Part shown: positions 1,668-9,439 of the stretch, one piece after another
How the letters are laid out: the number at the start of each line of letters is the position of its first letter
Numbering within the stretch: position 1 is the stretch's first letter
From: an uncultured Synergistia bacterium
Lineage (GTDB): Bacteria > Eremiobacterota > SpSt-956 > JAKJGF01
Reading direction: 5' to 3'
Assembly: GCA_937888925.1 (NCBI GenBank)
Contig: CALARM010000681.1
Coordinates: 1 to 10,591 of the forward strand
Length of the DNA stretch: 10,591 bases
Translations under genes and position numbers: made by a program
Notes under the pieces: model-generated
Database searches by the model: none
The model's input: only the letters and a program-made list of their open reading frames with translations
What the model was told of the DNA's origin: nothing

Positions 1668-2607
1668 AATAAATAGATGGAGTCCAGTCATCACTGCTGC
1701 CGGAGAAAACTTTTTCTATGTTCTTTCCTCCTGGATCCATAATAAAAATTTGCCAGTTAGGCCCCTGAAGATCAGAACAGAAAACTATTTTTTTCCTATC
1801 CCTGGAAAAATGGGGACAATGGGAACCAAATCCGCCTTTTGTAAGATGTTTGACATTAGTGCCATCTGATTTCATGGTAAATAAGTCATAATCTCCGTCT
1901 CTGTCAGAAGCCCATATTATATTCTTACCATCAGGTGATACAACTGCCTGAATATTATGGTAATGGACAGTCGTATTGGTAAGATGAACCTGTTTTGTTC
2001 CGTCTGTATTCATAACAAAGAGATCTGCATTTCCATCTCTGTAGGAAGTCCAGATTATTTTTTTCCCGTCAGGGAAAAAGGACGGGTCCCTGTCCCTTGT
2101 AACTTCTACGGTAGGAGGCATAGGACTATCATAAGACAGAGGCTGTTCTTTAACAGGTTTGTCAAAAGTAAGCCTCGTCTGATTTGAGCCATCAGAAGCC
2201 ATAACATAAACCTCTTCGTTTTTATCCCTTGTAGAGATAAAGACTATCTTTTTTCCGTCACTGGAAAAGGAAGGCATCTTATTATTACCACTGCTGGACG
2301 TAAGCTGTTTCCTGCCTGAACCGTCAACATTTATCATAAAAATCTGTGACCTCCCATCCCTGGAGTAAGCACTATAAATTAATTTCTTACCGTCTCCTGA
2401 CACACAGGGTTCGGTATCCACATATGGATTGGAAGATGTAAGATTCCTGGGCTCACCTTCGGAAGGGTAAAAAGCCGAATATATATCAAGATTTCCACTC
2501 CGATCAGATGCGAAATAAATACTATAGGTATTTGTTCCCTCTGCAAGGAAGGTGCAGAGTACAACTGACACAAAAGTCAAAATAGCCAGGAAGAAATTCT
2601 TCTTCAT
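1666..2607 (-). CDS. Secreted TolB-like six-bladed beta-propeller protein
   Basis: Predicted periplasmic or exported beta-propeller of 313 residues. A signal peptide covers residues 1 to about 23. Six PD40/TolB-type repeats follow at about 27-58, 64-104, 110-148, 172-210, 218-256 and 262-302, most with the pattern PSFSxDGKKIxFxSxRD, then ExxxMxxDG, then LT. The closing strand is WTPSIY at the C-terminus. A proline-rich insertion (149-171) separates blades 3 and 4. The N-terminal domain that true TolB carries before its propeller is absent, so this is probably not the Tol-Pal component itself; a binding or scaffold role is likely. The ATG overlaps the upstream stop as ATGA, and an AAAGGA site lies inside the upstream gene, which indicates translational coupling with the nucleotidase-like gene. 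The ligand is unknown. Confidence 0.85.
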   Translation of the reverse strand: MKKNFFLAILTFVSVVLCTFLAEGTNTYSIYFASDRSGNLDIYSAFYPSEGEPRNLTSSNPYVDTEPCVSGDGKKLIYSAYSRDGRSQIFMINVDGSGRKQLTSSSGNNKMPSFSSDGKKIVFISTRDKNEEVYVMASDGSNQTRLTFDKPVKEQPLSYDSPMPPTVEVTRDRDPSFFPDGKKIIWTSYRDGNADLFVMNTDGTKQVHLTNTTVHYHNIQAVVSPDGKNIIWASDRDGDYDLFTMKSDGTNVKHLTKGGFGSHCPHFSRDRKKIVFCSDLQGPNWQIFIMDPGGKNIEKVFSGSSDDWTPSIY

Positions 2608-5288
2608 TCTTTAACAATCCTTTCTTCCGCTCCCTGTTTAATCTCTTTAACTTCTTTTATATAATCAGAGATTACATCTCTGATAACTCCCCCTTTTTGA
2701 AGAAGTTTCCCGCCGGTAAAAAGAGTATAACCTTCTCCGCCTTCTGCCAGAAAACTGCTGGTAGCAACCTTATATAAGAAGCTGTCCGAAACAGGTTTGT
2801 CACCTATAGTTAAATTTAAAATCTTCTGGCCTGCCGGAGCATCCTTTTTATAAAGGATTTTCATACCGCTTATCTGAAGTATATCTTCAGAAGCAAGAGA
2901 CTGTTCCATAATAGCTTTAATATCTTTGCCTGTCATCTCCAGAACAGTCACGTTAAAATCATAAGGTATGACAGTATAAAGATGGCCGTAGGTAATATCG
3001 CCTTTAAACAAATCATTACGAAGATTTCTGCCGTTATAAACAGCCACGTCTGCACCTGATTTTTTAAGCATAACATCTGTTACAAAATCTCCGAGAGGAG
3101 ATTCTCTATCTCTCAATCTGGGGAACCAGCTATTTGCCGCTCCGAGAACTTCAGAATATTTAGCAGGTAATTTACTATTAAAGCTATCAATAATTTTCTG
3201 AATATCTTTATCACTTTCCTGTACACGTCCGGGAGAAATCGGTTTGATTTCATAAGTATAATTCACAGAGGTAATATCTTTCATAAATCCCATACCGATA
3301 TGACCTAAAAATCTTCCTTTAGTACCTGCTTCCAGTATCAAAATATCATTAATACTTAAAGGATCTACCGCGATAGAATAAGATCTCACATCTCCACCGA
3401 TTATAAAAACCGGTTTTTTATGATTACCTGGAATTATATTCTCAAAATCACTGGCTATAAGCATATTATCATAAAATCTCTGATTGGCCATTATTACAAT
3501 TGCATCACTGCTACTTTCGAGAGCAGAATAATATCTGGCAAGTGTAACCTTTGGATCTGTAAATGATAAACCTTTTACATATTCTCCCGGAATGAGTTTC
3601 GATATTTCACTATCAACAAGGCCGAGAACAGCTAACTTAAAGCCATTATAATCTACTATTATATAAGGCTTGAGTCCCGGGAAAAGATTATCTGTTCCCT
3701 GAACCATTACATTTGCCCCCAGTACAGGAAATGTTGCTTTGTTTATTAATTTACCAAGTTGTTCCTGTCCTACAAGGAAATCCTGTTCTCCAATCACTGC
3801 TGCCTTTACTCCTGTGGCATTAAGACAGTCTATTATAGCTTCCCCTTTCGTAGCTTCAGCCAGCGGTGTTCCATATAAAAAATTTCCGCTGCACAGGAGG
3901 AGATTATTTTTCGTGGAACCACTTAATTTCTTATAAGTGGAGGCAAGATAGGAAAAACCTCCTGATTCTGCAAAAGTTGTATTTTCCGTTTGTTCTTTTT
4001 CAGGAAGGAATGTATAGGCATTGGGGCCGCCTGTCATAAAGGGGTGAAGATATGAAAGCAGATCTGTAAAGTAATAAACATTTATTTCTGCCTGATTACG
4101 GGATATTGACGGATCTTTTTTTTCTTTAATATAAATTATACTTATTCGTCCAATATCATAACCTTTTACTGTGACCACATCTCCAACTTTCAGATATTCT
4201 ATTGGAAGAGCCTTTCTGGAAGGATCACTTTGATCTATGATTTTACAGGACATAAGATTTAATAATTGCTGTTTCTTATTATTACCCTCTATAAGAGCAG
4301 TTTTTTTAATTTTATTTATGTCAATAATTTTACCTTCTGCTACAATTTTAATTTCATCACTGCCTGACGATGTTCTGGTCAGACTTTCCAGTATAACAGG
4401 TAAAGCTTCCTCTACAAAAACTGCGCCGGCTATATAGGTTCTTCCAGGCATAGGCTGTGTGATACTGTAGATCATTACAGATTTTCCCTTAAGAGAGTCC
4501 AATCCTTTAAAATTCTGTGGCACAAGCATAACAGTCTTTTTATTTGCAAGAATCTTTTCATTACCTATTTTAAACATAAATTTTTCTTTTATAACTTCTG
4601 TAACTACACCTCTCAGAACCATAGGTCCATGGGAAGATACAAAAAGATCATTAACATAGGAAATAGGATCGAAAAAATAAGCAGGTTCAATAATCTTTGG
4701 TTCATGTTCGGCGAACCCCGGGAAAGAAGCCTTTGCATAAAATTTATCACCCGGGCGAAAAGCAGAAATAGCAACAGATTTAATATCCTTCATAACGTTC
4801 GTACCGGAAGTAATATTAAATTCCTTTTTGCCATCTTTTGTAACAACTGTAACATTATTGCCTTTTATTTCATGAACTGTTCCTGAATACTCCAGAGCAA
4901 CTCCCTGACCTGTAGCAAGTAAAAAAGCAGATTGTTGATCAAAAATTCCAACTGCCATTATCTCGTCAGGTAAGTTATTTTCTGTAGAAACAAGAATCTT
5001 ATCACCTACTTTAAAATCTTTAAACTGAACTGTAGCCATATTTTTTGTAAAACTCGTTCTGGAACTGGTGAGAATAGTTTTATCAACCGTTTTATCAGTC
5101 TTATCTTCTTTTATTGAAATTATAAAAGATTTATTATCTGTATTTATTTCTTCTACAGTGCCTGAAATAGAATAAAGTCCTTTTTTCTGTTCCTGGGCAT
5201 ATAGATTGGTATATATGGAAAAAGATAGAACCAGAATAAGAATTATAGTAATAATTTTGCTCACAATAACACCCTTTCTTTTAAACAT
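2604..5288 (-). CDS. Exported protein: four beta-domain repeats plus degenerate 5'-nucleotidase-like module
   Basis: The 894-residue frame starts at ATG 5288, used here for numbering. That ATG has no visible ribosome-binding site; GTG 5264 (codon 9) has AAAGGGTG upstream and leaves an ordinary signal peptide ending LYA, so it may be the true start. Four related beta-rich repeats (GxVxxI at the start, LKxGDxVxV near the end) cover about 39-112, 133-187, 224-275 and 316-378. Residues about 401-685 match the UshA/SoxB-type metallophosphatase fold, and 710-875 match the 5'-nucleotidase C-terminal domain (NGRNLR, DITYGHLYTVIP). The metal-site motifs are damaged: D409 remains, but the next His is L411, GD is GN469, GNHEFD is GEQDFL, the later His is N602, and GHTH reads GDVR (632-635). 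Hydrolysis is therefore doubtful; a binding or structural role is inferred. It is coupled to the downstream propeller gene. Confidence 0.85.
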   Translation of the reverse strand: MFKRKGVIVSKIITIILILVLSFSIYTNLYAQEQKKGLYSISGTVEEINTDNKSFIISIKEDKTDKTVDKTILTSSRTSFTKNMATVQFKDFKVGDKILVSTENNLPDEIMAVGIFDQQSAFLLATGQGVALEYSGTVHEIKGNNVTVVTKDGKKEFNITSGTNVMKDIKSVAISAFRPGDKFYAKASFPGFAEHEPKIIEPAYFFDPISYVNDLFVSSHGPMVLRGVVTEVIKEKFMFKIGNEKILANKKTVMLVPQNFKGLDSLKGKSVMIYSITQPMPGRTYIAGAVFVEEALPVILESLTRTSSGSDEIKIVAEGKIIDINKIKKTALIEGNNKKQQLLNLMSCKIIDQSDPSRKALPIEYLKVGDVVTVKGYDIGRISIIYIKEKKDPSISRNQAEINVYYFTDLLSYLHPFMTGGPNAYTFLPEKEQTENTTFAESGGFSYLASTYKKLSGSTKNNLLLCSGNFLYGTPLAEATKGEAIIDCLNATGVKAAVIGEQDFLVGQEQLGKLINKATFPVLGANVMVQGTDNLFPGLKPYIIVDYNGFKLAVLGLVDSEISKLIPGEYVKGLSFTDPKVTLARYYSALESSSDAIVIMANQRFYDNMLIASDFENIIPGNHKKPVFIIGGDVRSYSIAVDPLSINDILILEAGTKGRFLGHIGMGFMKDITSVNYTYEIKPISPGRVQESDKDIQKIIDSFNSKLPAKYSEVLGAANSWFPRLRDRESPLGDFVTDVMLKKSGADVAVYNGRNLRNDLFKGDITYGHLYTVIPYDFNVTVLEMTGKDIKAIMEQSLASEDILQISGMKILYKKDAPAGQKILNLTIGDKPVSDSFLYKVATSSFLAEGGEGYTLFTGGKLLQKGGVIRDVISDYIKEVKEIKQGAEERIVKE

Positions 5289-5372: not shown

Positions 5373-6437
5373 TTAACAGCAACAACTCGGTGTTACTTTT
5401 GGGGTAATCTGCTCATCCAGAATAGATGGCGTAAACTTAAGTTCTTTTACCGTGTTGGTACTCTTATCAAGGTACTGAATAGAAAAACCTGTTGCAAATG
5501 TAGAACCGAGATTATTGGTTTTAGCATTTACAGTAGAGGTTGTCATCTTATATGTAATACCACCCATTTCGGAACCGCCTTTGACATCCATATAATAGTT
5601 GGCATTGTTACTCGGTAAATCACCGGTTTTATTGGATGAATTTACTCCATCCATCATATTCTTGGCAGTGTTTATATCGGTCTTATAGGTAAACCACACA
5701 GGGTCACCTCTCAAAGCAGTAACGGTTCCCCCGGGGTTCTCCACATAGATATTAAAATAAGATTCATCGCTTTTCTGCCCGTCGCCGCCGCCATTTCCAC
5801 TTCCGCGGCTCTTCAGTACTACTGTAGTTCCATCAGGCTGTTTTACAGTATATTCAAGGCCCTGATATGTATATGTATTACCGGCAGGATCAGCTATGGA
5901 ATAACTATATACTTTTTTAGTAACCAGATAATCACCAAATTTTATTTCTTCTTCACTACCATATAAATTCTGATCAGCAGTCGGAGGAGGAGATACCGGC
6001 GCCGGTGCGTCACCGGGATTGGGATTTGAATTCGGATCTGCCTGCCATGCAGCATATTGCTGATCCCATACGGTTTTAGCAGCTACATAATTATTATAAT
6101 TTGTTTCCTGTTCATAATAACTGTCCCATAATTTATCTATATCTTCACTTGAGCTTGCACTGGTAGATACATCAAAAGTATCTGTTTCAGAAAGGCGTTT
6201 ACCTGTTCTGAGATCGGAAAAATATTTGTGGGCCCATGTATTATTTACTACCCACTCACTTCCGTTCCACACCATAGCTCCATTGAGGTTTGTCAGATTT
6301 CCTGCATCTTTTTCTACATGCCCCGCATCTTTAGTATCATTTTCAACTGTAATAACAGTAGTTCCGGCAAAGGATACAGACATAACCAGACATATAAAAA
6401 GTGCCAATATACTGATTGTTAATAAAGTCTTTTTCAT
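5373..6437 (-). CDS. Uncharacterised secreted protein ending in Cys-Cys-Cys
   Basis: I do not recognise a family for this 354-residue protein. Residues 1-24 form a clear signal peptide ending SFA. The mature part is polar and rich in Asn, Thr, Ser and Gly, with many Tyr and Trp. It has an acidic, Tyr-rich stretch (about 95-131), a Pro/Asn-rich linker (133-155), and beta-strand-like sequence from about 165 to 340 broken by a Gly-rich loop (212-221). The only cysteines in the mature protein are the last three residues, in the ending TPSCCC. The composition suits an extracellular or surface structural protein. GGAG at 6445-6448 lies seven bases before the ATG, and stronger ribosome-binding sites lie further upstream. 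It has its own promoter and a hairpin behind it, so it may be a single-gene unit and well expressed. The product is real; its function is unknown. Confidence 0.8.
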   Translation of the reverse strand: MKKTLLTISILALFICLVMSVSFAGTTVITVENDTKDAGHVEKDAGNLTNLNGAMVWNGSEWVVNNTWAHKYFSDLRTGKRLSETDTFDVSTSASSSEDIDKLWDSYYEQETNYNNYVAAKTVWDQQYAAWQADPNSNPNPGDAPAPVSPPPTADQNLYGSEEEIKFGDYLVTKKVYSYSIADPAGNTYTYQGLEYTVKQPDGTTVVLKSRGSGNGGGDGQKSDESYFNIYVENPGGTVTALRGDPVWFTYKTDINTAKNMMDGVNSSNKTGDLPSNNANYYMDVKGGSEMGGITYKMTTSTVNAKTNNLGSTFATGFSIQYLDKSTNTVKELKFTPSILDEQITPKVTPSCCC

Positions 6438-6785: not shown

Positions 6786-9242
6786 TCAGTAAAGCCATCC
6801 GTTATTTAACTGACGTAAAGCCTCATAGATTGCAACAGCAACAGAAGTAGAAAGATTGAAACTTCTGGCTTCGCCCCACATAGGTATGGAAAGGCACGAA
6901 TCTTCATGTTCTTTCAGCATAGATGCAGGAAGGCCCGGTGTTTCAGGGCCAAATACAAGGAAATCTTCCTTTTTATAAGAAACGGCAGTATAGGGTTTCG
7001 CTACATTGCTGGAAAAATAGAAAAATCTTCCACATGGAAAATCAGCATAAAGTTCTTCCATAGAAGGATAGTAGAACATATTAACAAGATGCCAGTAGTC
7101 GAGACCTGCCCGTTTCAGAGATCTATCCCGAAAAGAAAAGCCTAAATTGCCTACAAGATAAAGTTTCGAACCGGTTCCCGCACAGAGGCGCGCTATATTA
7201 CCGGTATTGGGTGGTATTTTAGGTTCATATAATACTATATTGATATAATTTTCCGGATAATAAGTTTCAGGCATTTTATTACACAGTTCCATAACACTTC
7301 TCCATTCCGATTGTTTTTTTTCTTCTCCTATACCGGCAGGTATCATTTCATCATAAGAATATTCTTTATCGTCACTCATGTCAGATGGCTCTTCCACAAA
7401 AGCCTCTCTTTTTTCAGGAGAACATTTTCCATATGGTTCCACATATTGATTCTGTTGTTTCTTCTCAAGTTTCTCCAGGGTTTTTTCTACAGTCCTCCTG
7501 ATGCCGGGATTTGTATCATGAAGTAAAAGAGACAGTTTGTCTATTATCAGAGCATCAGGTGCAAAATCTCTGAGGACTCCTGCTGCAGTTCTTCTTACTG
7601 AACTATTTTCATCTTTTAGATAATTTACTATAATCTCCGCTCCTGTACCAAGTTTTCCCAGCAATTTTAAAGCACATGATCTTACCTGCGGGTCTTGACT
7701 CTTCAGGGCAGATAAAATCACAGGTTTTGTCCTGTCGCCAAGAGACATTATAAATATTTCAACGGAATCCTTTATAATCGAATAGCTGTCACCTAGCCCT
7801 TTAACAAGAGCTTCTATGCCGGTATTACCGAGGGATAAAAGATTCTTATAATCTCTTCCGGCAAAATAATAATCTGCTTTTAAACATATATCATCTGTGT
7901 CCCATCCCATGTTATGAAGTGCAATAGCAGCGGAAAAACGGACATAATTGTGTTTATCCTTCAGGGCAGGTAAGATAATGGAAGAAGCTTCCATGCCCAT
8001 ATTCCCTGCAGCTTTTACGGCAAGTTTTCTGATATAGCTCCTTTTATGGCCTATAAAATCTTTTATCTCTTCCAGTGCTCTCGTATCTGCAAGTTTTCCC
8101 AGTGCTTTTATTACTTCAGCGCATACGGCCCAGTCTTCATCATAAAGAGTTTTCAAGAGGGCAGGTACAGCTTCTCTGGAGTCAGAGTTTCCGAGAGCTT
8201 TTGCAGAAAGAAACCTCACCTGTGGTCTGTCACTTTCAAGAGAAGAAACAAAAACAGAAGAAGCCCTTTTATCCTCTATAGAATACAGGGCTTCAACTAT
8301 AGAATCTTCAAACTCTTCCTTTCTTTTCCTGTATAAATCCATGAGAAAAGGGACAGAGACAGGATTCTTTATAGATCCGAGTGCTTTTATGGCAAGTCTC
8401 TTAATTTCGAGATTTTTATCATTTTTTATAATATCCATAAGAGGTTCTATAGAAGTACTGCTGGAAAGACCTGCAAGGGATTTCACGGCAGCCAGACGCA
8501 ATTCCGGTTCAGTTTCTTTCAGTTTATGACATAACACATCTACAGCTCTTTCATCTCCAATTTTTCCCAGGGCTTCAACTACTTTTATTTGCAGTTCCAG
8601 ATCTTCTTCTTTAAGAAGCTCCATAAGAGGAAGAAAAGCTCTTCTGTCGCCTATATTCCCTAAAGCTTCGGCAGCTCTTATATTAACCCTCAGATTGTTG
8701 AATTTCAATACTTCTATAAGAGGAACAACTGCCCTCTCATGTCCTATAATCCCAAGGGCATGGGCCGATTTACAGGCAAGATCCCAGTTTTTAGGAACAT
8801 AATTAAGATGTTCTATAAAAAGATAGAATGCTTCTTCACCGAGTTTAATCAATTCACCGAAATTACCACGTGCAAAATAATATCTCAGTTTTTCCTCAAA
8901 ACCGGAAGGTCTCCAGTCAAAACAGGTGAGCACCTCTGCAGCCATGGTATAAACCTTCCTCTCAGGATCACTTAAAGCTTTTACAAGTTCTCCTGTAGCA
9001 GATTTTTCCCGAAGCTGACCTATAGACCATATGGCATCACATCTGACATACCAGTCACGATCATTCATAGCTTCAATAAAAGCGGGAAGAGAAGAATCTT
9101 TAAAATATTCCATCAGTAAATCTGCTGCTTTATGTCTTACAGCAAGGTTTCTGTGTCTCAAAGCAGATTTTAAAAATTCCATATTTTTGCCTGTGAAATC
9201 CATAGACATAAATTCATGAGGAACAATATTTTGTATATTCAT
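6786..9242 (-). CDS. trmL: HEAT-repeat protein fused to TrmL-type tRNA (cytidine/uridine-34) 2'-O-methyltransferase
   Basis: An 818-residue cytoplasmic protein with no signal peptide. Residues about 20-593 are HEAT/PBS-lyase-type helical repeats, with recurring patterns such as AVRxxAAxALGxIGDxRA. Two long elements of related sequence, beginning near 110 and 447 (both with YYFA), interrupt the regular repeats. A charged linker spans 594-660. Residues 666-818 are a full-length SPOUT methyltransferase of the TrmL type: INIVLYEPKIPPNTGNIARL (667-686), FGPETPGLP (764-772) and IPMWGEARSFNLS (786-798), ending YEALRQL. TrmL uses S-adenosylmethionine to methylate the ribose of wobble base 34 in tRNA-Leu and normally stands alone at about 155-160 residues, so the N-terminal arm is extra. 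AAGGA lies 11 bases before ATG 9242. A second credible start is ATG 7292. The enzyme domain call is firm; the purpose of the HEAT arm is unknown. Confidence 0.9.
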   Translation of the reverse strand: MNIQNIVPHEFMSMDFTGKNMEFLKSALRHRNLAVRHKAADLLMEYFKDSSLPAFIEAMNDRDWYVRCDAIWSIGQLREKSATGELVKALSDPERKVYTMAAEVLTCFDWRPSGFEEKLRYYFARGNFGELIKLGEEAFYLFIEHLNYVPKNWDLACKSAHALGIIGHERAVVPLIEVLKFNNLRVNIRAAEALGNIGDRRAFLPLMELLKEEDLELQIKVVEALGKIGDERAVDVLCHKLKETEPELRLAAVKSLAGLSSSTSIEPLMDIIKNDKNLEIKRLAIKALGSIKNPVSVPFLMDLYRKRKEEFEDSIVEALYSIEDKRASSVFVSSLESDRPQVRFLSAKALGNSDSREAVPALLKTLYDEDWAVCAEVIKALGKLADTRALEEIKDFIGHKRSYIRKLAVKAAGNMGMEASSIILPALKDKHNYVRFSAAIALHNMGWDTDDICLKADYYFAGRDYKNLLSLGNTGIEALVKGLGDSYSIIKDSVEIFIMSLGDRTKPVILSALKSQDPQVRSCALKLLGKLGTGAEIIVNYLKDENSSVRRTAAGVLRDFAPDALIIDKLSLLLHDTNPGIRRTVEKTLEKLEKKQQNQYVEPYGKCSPEKREAFVEEPSDMSDDKEYSYDEMIPAGIGEEKKQSEWRSVMELCNKMPETYYPENYINIVLYEPKIPPNTGNIARLCAGTGSKLYLVGNLGFSFRDRSLKRAGLDYWHLVNMFYYPSMEELYADFPCGRFFYFSSNVAKPYTAVSYKKEDFLVFGPETPGLPASMLKEHEDSCLSIPMWGEARSFNLSTSVAVAIYEALRQLNNGWLY
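7290..7303 (-). promoter_or_regulatory. Internal ribosome-binding site and ATG that would give a free TrmL
   Basis: Inside the fusion gene GGAG (7300-7303) sits seven bases before an in-frame ATG (7290-7292, residue 651), which looks at least as good as the site at the gene's own start. Initiation here would give a 168-residue protein that is almost exactly a normal stand-alone TrmL. It could be a second product or a remnant of the gene's ancestral start. Confidence 0.45.
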
Positions 9243-9263
9243 AAGTAATTCAATCCTTATTTC

Positions 9264-9326
9264 GTGACGCGTAACGCGTGACGGGTATATTATAATTCGT
9301 GATGCGTAATGCGTAATGCGTATCTA
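9264..9326 (+). repeat. Heptanucleotide array of GTRAYGC type (nine in-phase units)
   Basis: Units start every seven bases from 9264 to 9320. The first three are GTGACGC, GTAACGC and GTGACGG; units at 9299, 9306 and 9313 are GTGATGC, GTAATGC and GTAATGC. The two middle units (9285-9298) are degenerate but keep the phase. The array lies just upstream of the HEAT-TrmL start. Confidence 0.8.
9289..9294 (-). promoter_or_regulatory. Possible -10 box for the HEAT-TrmL gene inside the heptamer array
   Basis: The minus strand reads TATAAT within the two degenerate heptamer units, 47 bases before ATG 9242. No clear -35 box is present at 16-18 bases, only a TTACGC-like hexamer, and there is no extended -10. 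AT-rich sequence makes chance matches likely. Confidence 0.3.
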
Positions 9327-9332
9327 ATCTCA

Positions 9333-9352
9333 GGGCGTTTAATTAAACGCCC
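9333..9352. repeat. Perfect 20-base palindrome
   Basis: GGGCGTTTAA is followed at once by its exact reverse complement, giving ten-base arms with no spacer. It lies between two heptamer arrays, about 90 bases after the LpxB-like gene's stop codon. There is no T-run on either side, so it is not a standard terminator; it may be a protein-binding site or part of a small dispersed repeat. Confidence 0.75.
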
Positions 9353-9371
9353 GTACTTACCATTTACGTCT

Positions 9372-9427
9372 CACTTTTCACTTTTCACTTTTCACTTTTC
9401 ACTTTTCACTCTTCACTTTTCACTCTC
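9372..9427 (-). repeat. Heptanucleotide array of CACTTTT type (eight units)
   Basis: Five exact CACTTTT units run from 9372 to 9406, followed by CACTCTT (9407), CACTTTT (9414) and CACTCTC (9421), all in phase. On the minus strand the unit reads AAAAGTG, that is GTGAAAA when permuted, so it belongs to the same GTRAnnn family. The array ends 13 bases before the stop codon of the LpxB-like gene. Confidence 0.85.
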
Positions 9428-9439
9428 CCCATATAAACA

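Follow-up and report, generated by a model that had tools for sequence, protein, structure and literature searches.

A TrmL-type SPOUT methyltransferase domain fused to a long HEAT-repeat arm in a bacterial gene

TrmL carries out the 2′-O-methylation of position 34 of tRNA-Leu, an activity which depends on i6A37, and is a perpendicular homodimer. The members of the TrmL/YibK/CspR group (COG0219, TIGR00185; PDB 4jak, 4kdz, 4pzk, 9j5p and 5co4) are described as consisting of the SPOUT domain only. Two papers call this enzyme "minimalist" (PMC3763551, PMC9508554), and a 2007 survey of SPOUT proteins states that YibK-family members hold the SPOUT domain only (PMC1829167). The initial annotation of the DNA studied here, which described TrmL as a small stand-alone enzyme, is in line with these sources. 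Other SPOUT enzymes are extended. TrmJ and the COG0566 enzymes are 2′-O-methyltransferases with an added domain, and in yeast Trm3 and human TARBP1, which form Gm18 in tRNA, the SPOUT domain is C-terminal and comes after a very long N-terminal region, which in Trm3 is predicted to be helical (PMC9508554, PMC5372735). How Trm3 picks its substrate was called unknown in 2017 (PMC5372735). Here we describe a bacterial gene which shares with these larger enzymes the possession of an extension and in which a SPOUT domain of the TrmL type comes after a linker and an arm of about 600 residues.

The gene lies in a stretch of DNA of 10,591 nucleotides, in the following called the window (Table 1). Its 818 codons contain no internal stop, which bears out the earlier statement that HEAT repeats and TrmL domain are joined in one uninterrupted frame, and relatives with the same order of parts exist. 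The original estimate of about 570 HEAT residues agrees with the structure model, in which helices span residues 18 to 597 and 17 repeats can be counted; these tandem helical hairpins match HEAT profiles (Pfam HEAT_2, E 9.6e-72, six stretches). Two inserted helix pairs of the arm resemble each other by eye, and the first of them contains many columns that are invariant among the fused relatives. Two motifs in the linker are conserved in all eight full-length fused proteins, the invariant columns being E627, S629, Y630, E632 and M633 in the first and V650, M651, L653, C654, N655, K656, Y661, Y662 and P663 in the second. These motifs may attach to the arm or the enzyme.

Table 1. Positions of the HEAT-TrmL gene and of its parts in the window (EcTrmL, E. 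coli TrmL).
Feature	Position	Strand	Details
HEAT-TrmL fusion gene, 818 aa	6786..9242	(-)	ATG at 9242, stop at 6788-6786
HEAT solenoid arm, residues 18-597	7452..9191	(-)	17 repeats, alphaRep-like
Inserted helix pair 1, arm residues 115-135	8838..8900	(-)	extra model helices 115-125, 128-133
Inserted helix pair 2, arm residues 447-472	7827..7904	(-)	model helices 452-461, 465-469
Flexible acidic linker, residues 598-665	7248..7451	(-)	pLDDT <50 at 599-648
Linker motif [DE][KR]E[YF]SYxEM, residues 625-633	7344..7370	(-)	8/8 fused; also P0125
Motif VM[ED]LCNK....YYP, residues 650-663, directly before TrmL domain	7254..7295	(-)	8/8 fused; also P0125
TrmL-type SPOUT 2′-O-methyltransferase domain, residues 666-818	6789..7247	(-)	
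SPOUT motif 1 region, residues 674-690	7173..7223	(-)	N679 = EcTrmL N14, R685 = R20
SPOUT motif 2 region, residues 761-772	6927..6962	(-)	E767 = EcTrmL E102; P769 replaces R104
SPOUT motif 3 region, residues 786-811	6810..6887	(-)	R793, S794, N796 kept
Codon of N746, equivalent of EcTrmL Lys81	7005..7007	(-)	

The gene upstream, on the same strand, is LpxB-like (PF02684; 9440-10591, cut by the window end) and suggests a diderm host. It scores far below the TIGR00215 (LpxB) cut-off (54.9 versus 190.25 bits), and a tblastn search of a plasmid collection returned for it just two Proteus records at 24.6% identity. In the region between this gene and the fusion gene (9243-9439) the 7-bp unit TCACTTT is repeated in tandem 7.7 times (9371-9424), two 10-bp arms form a perfect inverted repeat (9333-9352), and short repeats resembling GTGACG and CATTACGC can be made out by eye. 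Near the fusion gene, the numbers of promoter- and terminator-like sites (26 and 4) came close to those in shuffled sequence (17.8, sd 3.7, and 3.6), and these sites were set aside. Further genes on the minus strand encode a 354-aa protein (5373-6437) with what looks by eye like a signal peptide, a C-terminal SCCC and, at E 0.001, no match in Pfam or NCBIfam; an 894-aa protein (2604-5288) with a 5′-nucleotidase C-terminal domain (PF02872) at residues 725-858, nucleotidase-like NCBIfam matches from about residue 416 on and, in its first 400 residues or so, a weak ExtJ match at 124-171 only; and a NicO-type nickel/cobalt transporter (PF03824; 2-1495, cut by the window end), in whose gene an 18-bp unit, repeated in tandem about 20 times (106-463), encodes a long His/Asp-rich stretch. 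Rfam gave no match anywhere in the window, and no tRNA gene lies within it.

The SPOUT domain (Pfam SpoU_methylase, E 2.1e-28, residues 667-806) is closest to TrmL and not to TrmH, TrmJ or RlmB. The NCBIfam model for TrmL, TIGR00185, scores 172.7 bits (E 4.8e-51, residues 667-813), whereas the rival models for TrmJ/YjtD, RlmB and TrmH reach far lower scores of 27.6, 28 and 25.1 bits, and the best five PDB matches are all named tRNA (cytidine(34)-2′-O)-methyltransferase. The score stays below the curated cut-off of 190.6 bits, which is ordinary, since most TrmL-type matches in two phylum samples are also below it: the cut-off is exceeded in just 8 of 295 and 8 of 124 genomes, while 260 and 89 of the same genomes, respectively, contain a match at E 1e-30. 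The extensions of TrmJ and the COG0566 enzymes are shorter than the arm described here (PMC9508554). With Trm3 and TARBP1 the protein shares, in the model, the layout in which the SPOUT domain is C-terminal and is preceded by a very long stretch of helices, but the region before the SPOUT domain comprises about 600 residues as against about 1280-1400 (PMC9508554), and the domain itself falls outside that family (2ha8 of TARBP1, E 4.9e-7, versus TrmL 4pzk, E 6.9e-46). The alphaRep proteins and the HEAT_2/PBS-lyase-like repeats, on the other hand, are designed binders and repeat families without a methyltransferase. At 818 residues and with its HEAT arm the protein also departs from the SPOUT-only architecture of about 155 residues which is the norm for TrmL; rather than a plain TrmL, it is a new architecture that contains a TrmL-type domain.

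We searched 5.77 billion proteins for relatives, with the TrmL part as query and with lengths between 0.55 and 1.75 times that of the whole protein, a search which detects relatives sharing five-residue words with the window's TrmL. The 174 candidates yielded 11 long matches, eight of which are HEAT-TrmL proteins. One of these clusters (P0001) is identical to the window's protein; the other seven, which come from four sources (ena, jgi, ncbi and lgn), are 54-90% identical to it, have 806-828 residues and keep the same order of parts and both linker motifs. Two shorter matches belong here as well, namely P0125, a 314-aa piece which starts inside the arm and comprises the last repeats, the linker and TrmL, and P0124, a TrmL-only protein of 167 residues which is 96% identical and begins within a linker motif. 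Such pieces are what an artefact of assembly or gene calling might leave behind. However, P0124 and P0125 both carry residues typical of the fused clade and may have been cut by contig ends or a frameshift, and the seven full-length clusters from four sources refute an artefact in the main, so that we consider this explanation extremely improbable. The initial annotation had named a missed stop or frameshift near 7290-7460 as the weak spot of the fusion; this is excluded, because all seven other full-length clusters are open through the same linker. P0124 could result from a frameshift, from a contig end or from splitting of the gene, and is the sole item that possibly counts against a strict fusion.

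Stand-alone TrmL proteins are abundant in the same protein database, with at least 7999 scored candidates of stand-alone size. The three remaining long matches are a Ppx/GppA-TrmL fusion (P0009), a TrmL-sigma54 fusion (P0010) and a PriA piece with a partial TrmL (P0011), the last of which looks chimeric. A search with the whole protein gave 401 matches. The best 120 of these are the eight fused proteins followed by HEAT proteins at 22-35% identity, and no close stand-alone relative of the arm is found among these 120. Single-domain relatives of the TrmL part occur at 52-61% identity among the matches listed. No fused locus was found in 84,980 species genomes by one scan with two arm peptide patterns, which is blind to diverged fusions without these two peptides; of the 453 stretches matched, two are relatives, a stand-alone TrmL and a HEAT match. 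One pattern scan of viral contigs matched 398 stretches without a relative, and tblastn of the plasmid collection matched 69 records, none of which reached 80% query coverage. In the first phylum sample the longest TrmL frame has 369 residues and the next 218 (150 of the 260 matches listed), and in the second the longest has 210 residues (all 89 matches). In the 369-aa frame (L007, G091:C8:6200-9200; match G091:C8:7516-7971, minus strand) TrmL is joined in-frame, without a stop, to a protein which we take, going by its sequence, to be RdgB-like.

In our literature search of 5.39 million papers, which covers the minority of subscription papers, no paper joins TrmL with a HEAT repeat, no precedent for a SpoU-HEAT repeat fusion was found, none of 15 papers on SPOUT methyltransferases or Trm3 contains "heat repeat", and the sole match for TARBP1 with HEAT repeats concerns SF3B1. 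Two possible precedents were rejected. In the paper on the CoCoNuTs (PMC11090510) the match to "SpoU" is an author name, and Xnr_5296 (PMC12772374) is, by that paper's own search, a COG0566 enzyme with an eL30-like domain. The HEAT-TrmL fusion is real, conserved and rare in the searches made, so that the rarity supposed at the outset holds within the proteins and species genomes covered.

HEAT domains are common and often fused to other domains. One may therefore ask whether an upstream HEAT gene simply ran into trmL by a neutral accident which left the two parts independent of each other. Most of the linker varies, distant members being 35-49% identical in it, and other TrmL fusions exist, with Ppx in P0009 and with the RdgB-like protein in G091. 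Yet the order of the parts, their length and the two linker motifs are kept in all eight proteins at an arm identity of only about 50%, and the arm lacks a close stand-alone relative among the best 120 of 401 matches. We regard such an accident as quite improbable.

A tree of the TrmL domain was calculated from 130 rows (nine fused domains including P0125, 118 stand-alone proteins, E. coli TrmL, P0009 and P0010). The fused domains form one clade with a support of 100/100, in a bootstrap that had not fully settled, on a stem branch of 0.56. With monophyly judged from the support values, the nine domains in a single clade imply that the fusion arose once in this set, and the HEAT-TrmL fusion looks single in origin.

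To compare the catalytic domains we mapped the nine fused domains and their 118 nearest stand-alone relatives, which are not an even sample, onto E. coli TrmL, whose numbering is used in the following. In that enzyme N14, E102, S130, N132 and L133 hold SAH or form the active site, R20, R45, R46, R129 and K42 serve in tRNA binding and Tyr142 in the dimer (PMC3763551). In all nine fused domains N14, E102, S130, N132, L133, R20, R46, R129 and Tyr142 (Y806 of the window's protein) are identical, and R45 and K42 are exchanged for Lys and Arg, respectively. R43 and R59 are not retained, but only 0 and 12 of the 118 stand-alone proteins have Arg there. Several positions which are usual in stand-alone TrmL are nevertheless altered. 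Six columns (728, 745, 746, 769, 785 and 795 of the fusion protein) have one residue in at least eight of the nine fused domains and another in at least 60% of the stand-alone proteins, and we stress three of them for their known role or their rarity. At the equivalent of K81 (746) all nine fused domains have Asn, whereas Lys is found in 113 and Asn in one of the 118 stand-alones. At the equivalent of R104 (769) eight of nine have Pro and P0125 has His, whereas 94 of 118 stand-alones have Arg or Lys and none Pro. The usual Leu of motif 3 (795) is Phe in eight of nine (F795 here; Leu in P0125) and Phe in one of 118 stand-alones. Of the earlier claim that all three SPOUT motif regions are intact it can thus be said that motifs 1-3 are kept, but that all or nearly all members of the clade have other residues in place of Lys81, Arg104 and the motif 3 Leu. 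K81 and R104 lie at the edge of the active site and are usual, although not defining, for TrmL.

In E. coli TrmL the exchange K81A leaves Km unchanged and lowers kcat by 40%, and with R104A Km is about three times as high (9.78 instead of 3.39 µM; PMC3763551). The losses would thus weaken activity but need not abolish it, and the fused enzymes are probably active, with weakened site edges which something else may make good. A different reading of the same residues is that K81N, R104P and the change from Leu to Phe in motif 3 reflect another target, either another RNA site or a protein, which is brought by the arm. The edge changes are indeed nearly exclusive to the fused clade, being present in eight or nine of nine fused domains as against none or one of 118 stand-alone proteins, and the stem branch of 0.56 is in keeping with this reading. 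Against it, the tRNA-binding residues R20, R46 and R129 and a Lys in place of R45 are retained, changes of this size can be neutral, and P0125 combines Asn at position 81 with His at position 104 and the motif 3 Leu, so that the edge changes need not be coordinated. A changed target is in our view unlikely.

The initial annotation had suggested that the arm could bind tRNA-Leu, a partner protein or the ribosome. Could the arm itself be what makes good the weakened edges? As in larger SPOUT enzymes, it might be a tRNA-binding extension that wraps the body of the tRNA and offsets the weakened contacts of the SPOUT domain. Most SPOUT enzymes have RNA-binding extensions, and the N-terminal domains of Trm3 and TARBP1 comprise about 1280 and 1400 residues (PMC3763551, PMC9508554); moreover, the tRNA-contact residue R104 is gone, as Pro, in eight of nine fused domains, and the arm of one member, P0007, is basic (net charge +12, pI 9.14). 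In the seven other members, however, the net charge of residues 1-592 is between -8 and 0. The linker (residues 593-665; pI 4.5-6.5, net charge -8 to 0 across the eight proteins) is negative in seven of eight. The arm being near neutral, a simple RNA-binding arm is not favoured. In addition an anticodon stem-loop minihelix suffices as substrate of E. coli TrmL (PMC9508554), and therefore a long grip is not obviously needed. We consider a tRNA-wrapping arm somewhat unlikely.

The surface of the arm may point to docking. In fold comparisons the arm is most similar to designed alphaRep binders. Hundreds of further solenoids match as well, karyopherins and the PP2A scaffold among them; we claim no kinship, and the matches to protein-binding solenoids mirror the content of the PDB. 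In alphaRep proteins the positions around the Arg of the B helix are among the variable binding positions. We determined the conservation at each repeat offset as the mean pairwise identity among four diverged members (the window's protein, P0006, P0007 and P0008). Offsets -3 and -2 before the B-helix Arg show 0.66 and 0.72 compared with an arm mean of 0.52, while +1, +2 and +5 show 0.47-0.50; residues near this Arg which are identical in all four members include W64, Y65, W153, W371, S402, Y403, N432 and Y433. This pattern suggests a conserved docking edge on the solenoid, which may be partly structural, because conservation is higher still at offsets -1, 0 and +7 (0.75-0.81), as it would be at structural positions.

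Taken as a whole, we propose, with a probability of roughly 0.45, that the protein is a dimeric ribose methyltransferase of the TrmL type which gained its arm once, which docks a partner with this arm and which methylates the anticodon loop of tRNA. A working SPOUT ribose 2′-O-methyltransferase of the TrmL type would have acquired the N-terminal HEAT arm in a single event. The TrmL domains, which retain the dimer residue Tyr142 in all nine fused proteins and were modelled as single chains, would pair as in TrmL, and such a dimer would therefore bear two arms on flexible linkers. The catalytic domain would methylate a ribose in the anticodon loop, probably at position 34, and the conserved edge of the solenoid would dock a partner that recruits or positions the substrate. 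The arm most likely docks a partner protein or the body of the tRNA, a protein being the likelier partner than bare RNA or tRNA, given the near-neutral charge of most arms. The docked partner would take over part of the catalytic domain's grip on the substrate, and with this grip partly relieved the loss of K81 and R104 could be allowed. Against this proposal count the basic arm of P0007, the existence of P0124 as a near-identical TrmL-only protein, and the consideration that a second stand-alone TrmL in the host might do the usual job. A more far-reaching version, which we hold to be rather unlikely, is that the HEAT scaffold makes TrmL a partner-controlled enzyme: the arm would recruit a protein, perhaps one from the ribosome or one that handles tRNA or senses stress, and would control the place or the time of methylation of the wobble ribose or of a new site, and the edge of the active site would have evolved to depend on the arm.

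According to a proposal by Liu and colleagues, extension domains arose in SPOUT enzymes as a means of widening substrate recognition (PMC3763551). Judging from the sequences, the new elements are the HEAT-arm architecture and the clade-specific change of the active-site edge, while the TrmL enzyme type is known. The fusion is a natural case of the gain of an extension domain on TrmL, the standard example of a SPOUT-only enzyme, and because single-domain relatives exist at 52-61% identity among the matches listed, one can measure directly how gaining the arm has affected the active site and the choice of substrate. It is also a bacterial parallel to Trm3 and TARBP1, built on a different SPOUT family, and if control by a docked partner holds true, bacteria would have evolved in it, independently, a counterpart of these enzymes.
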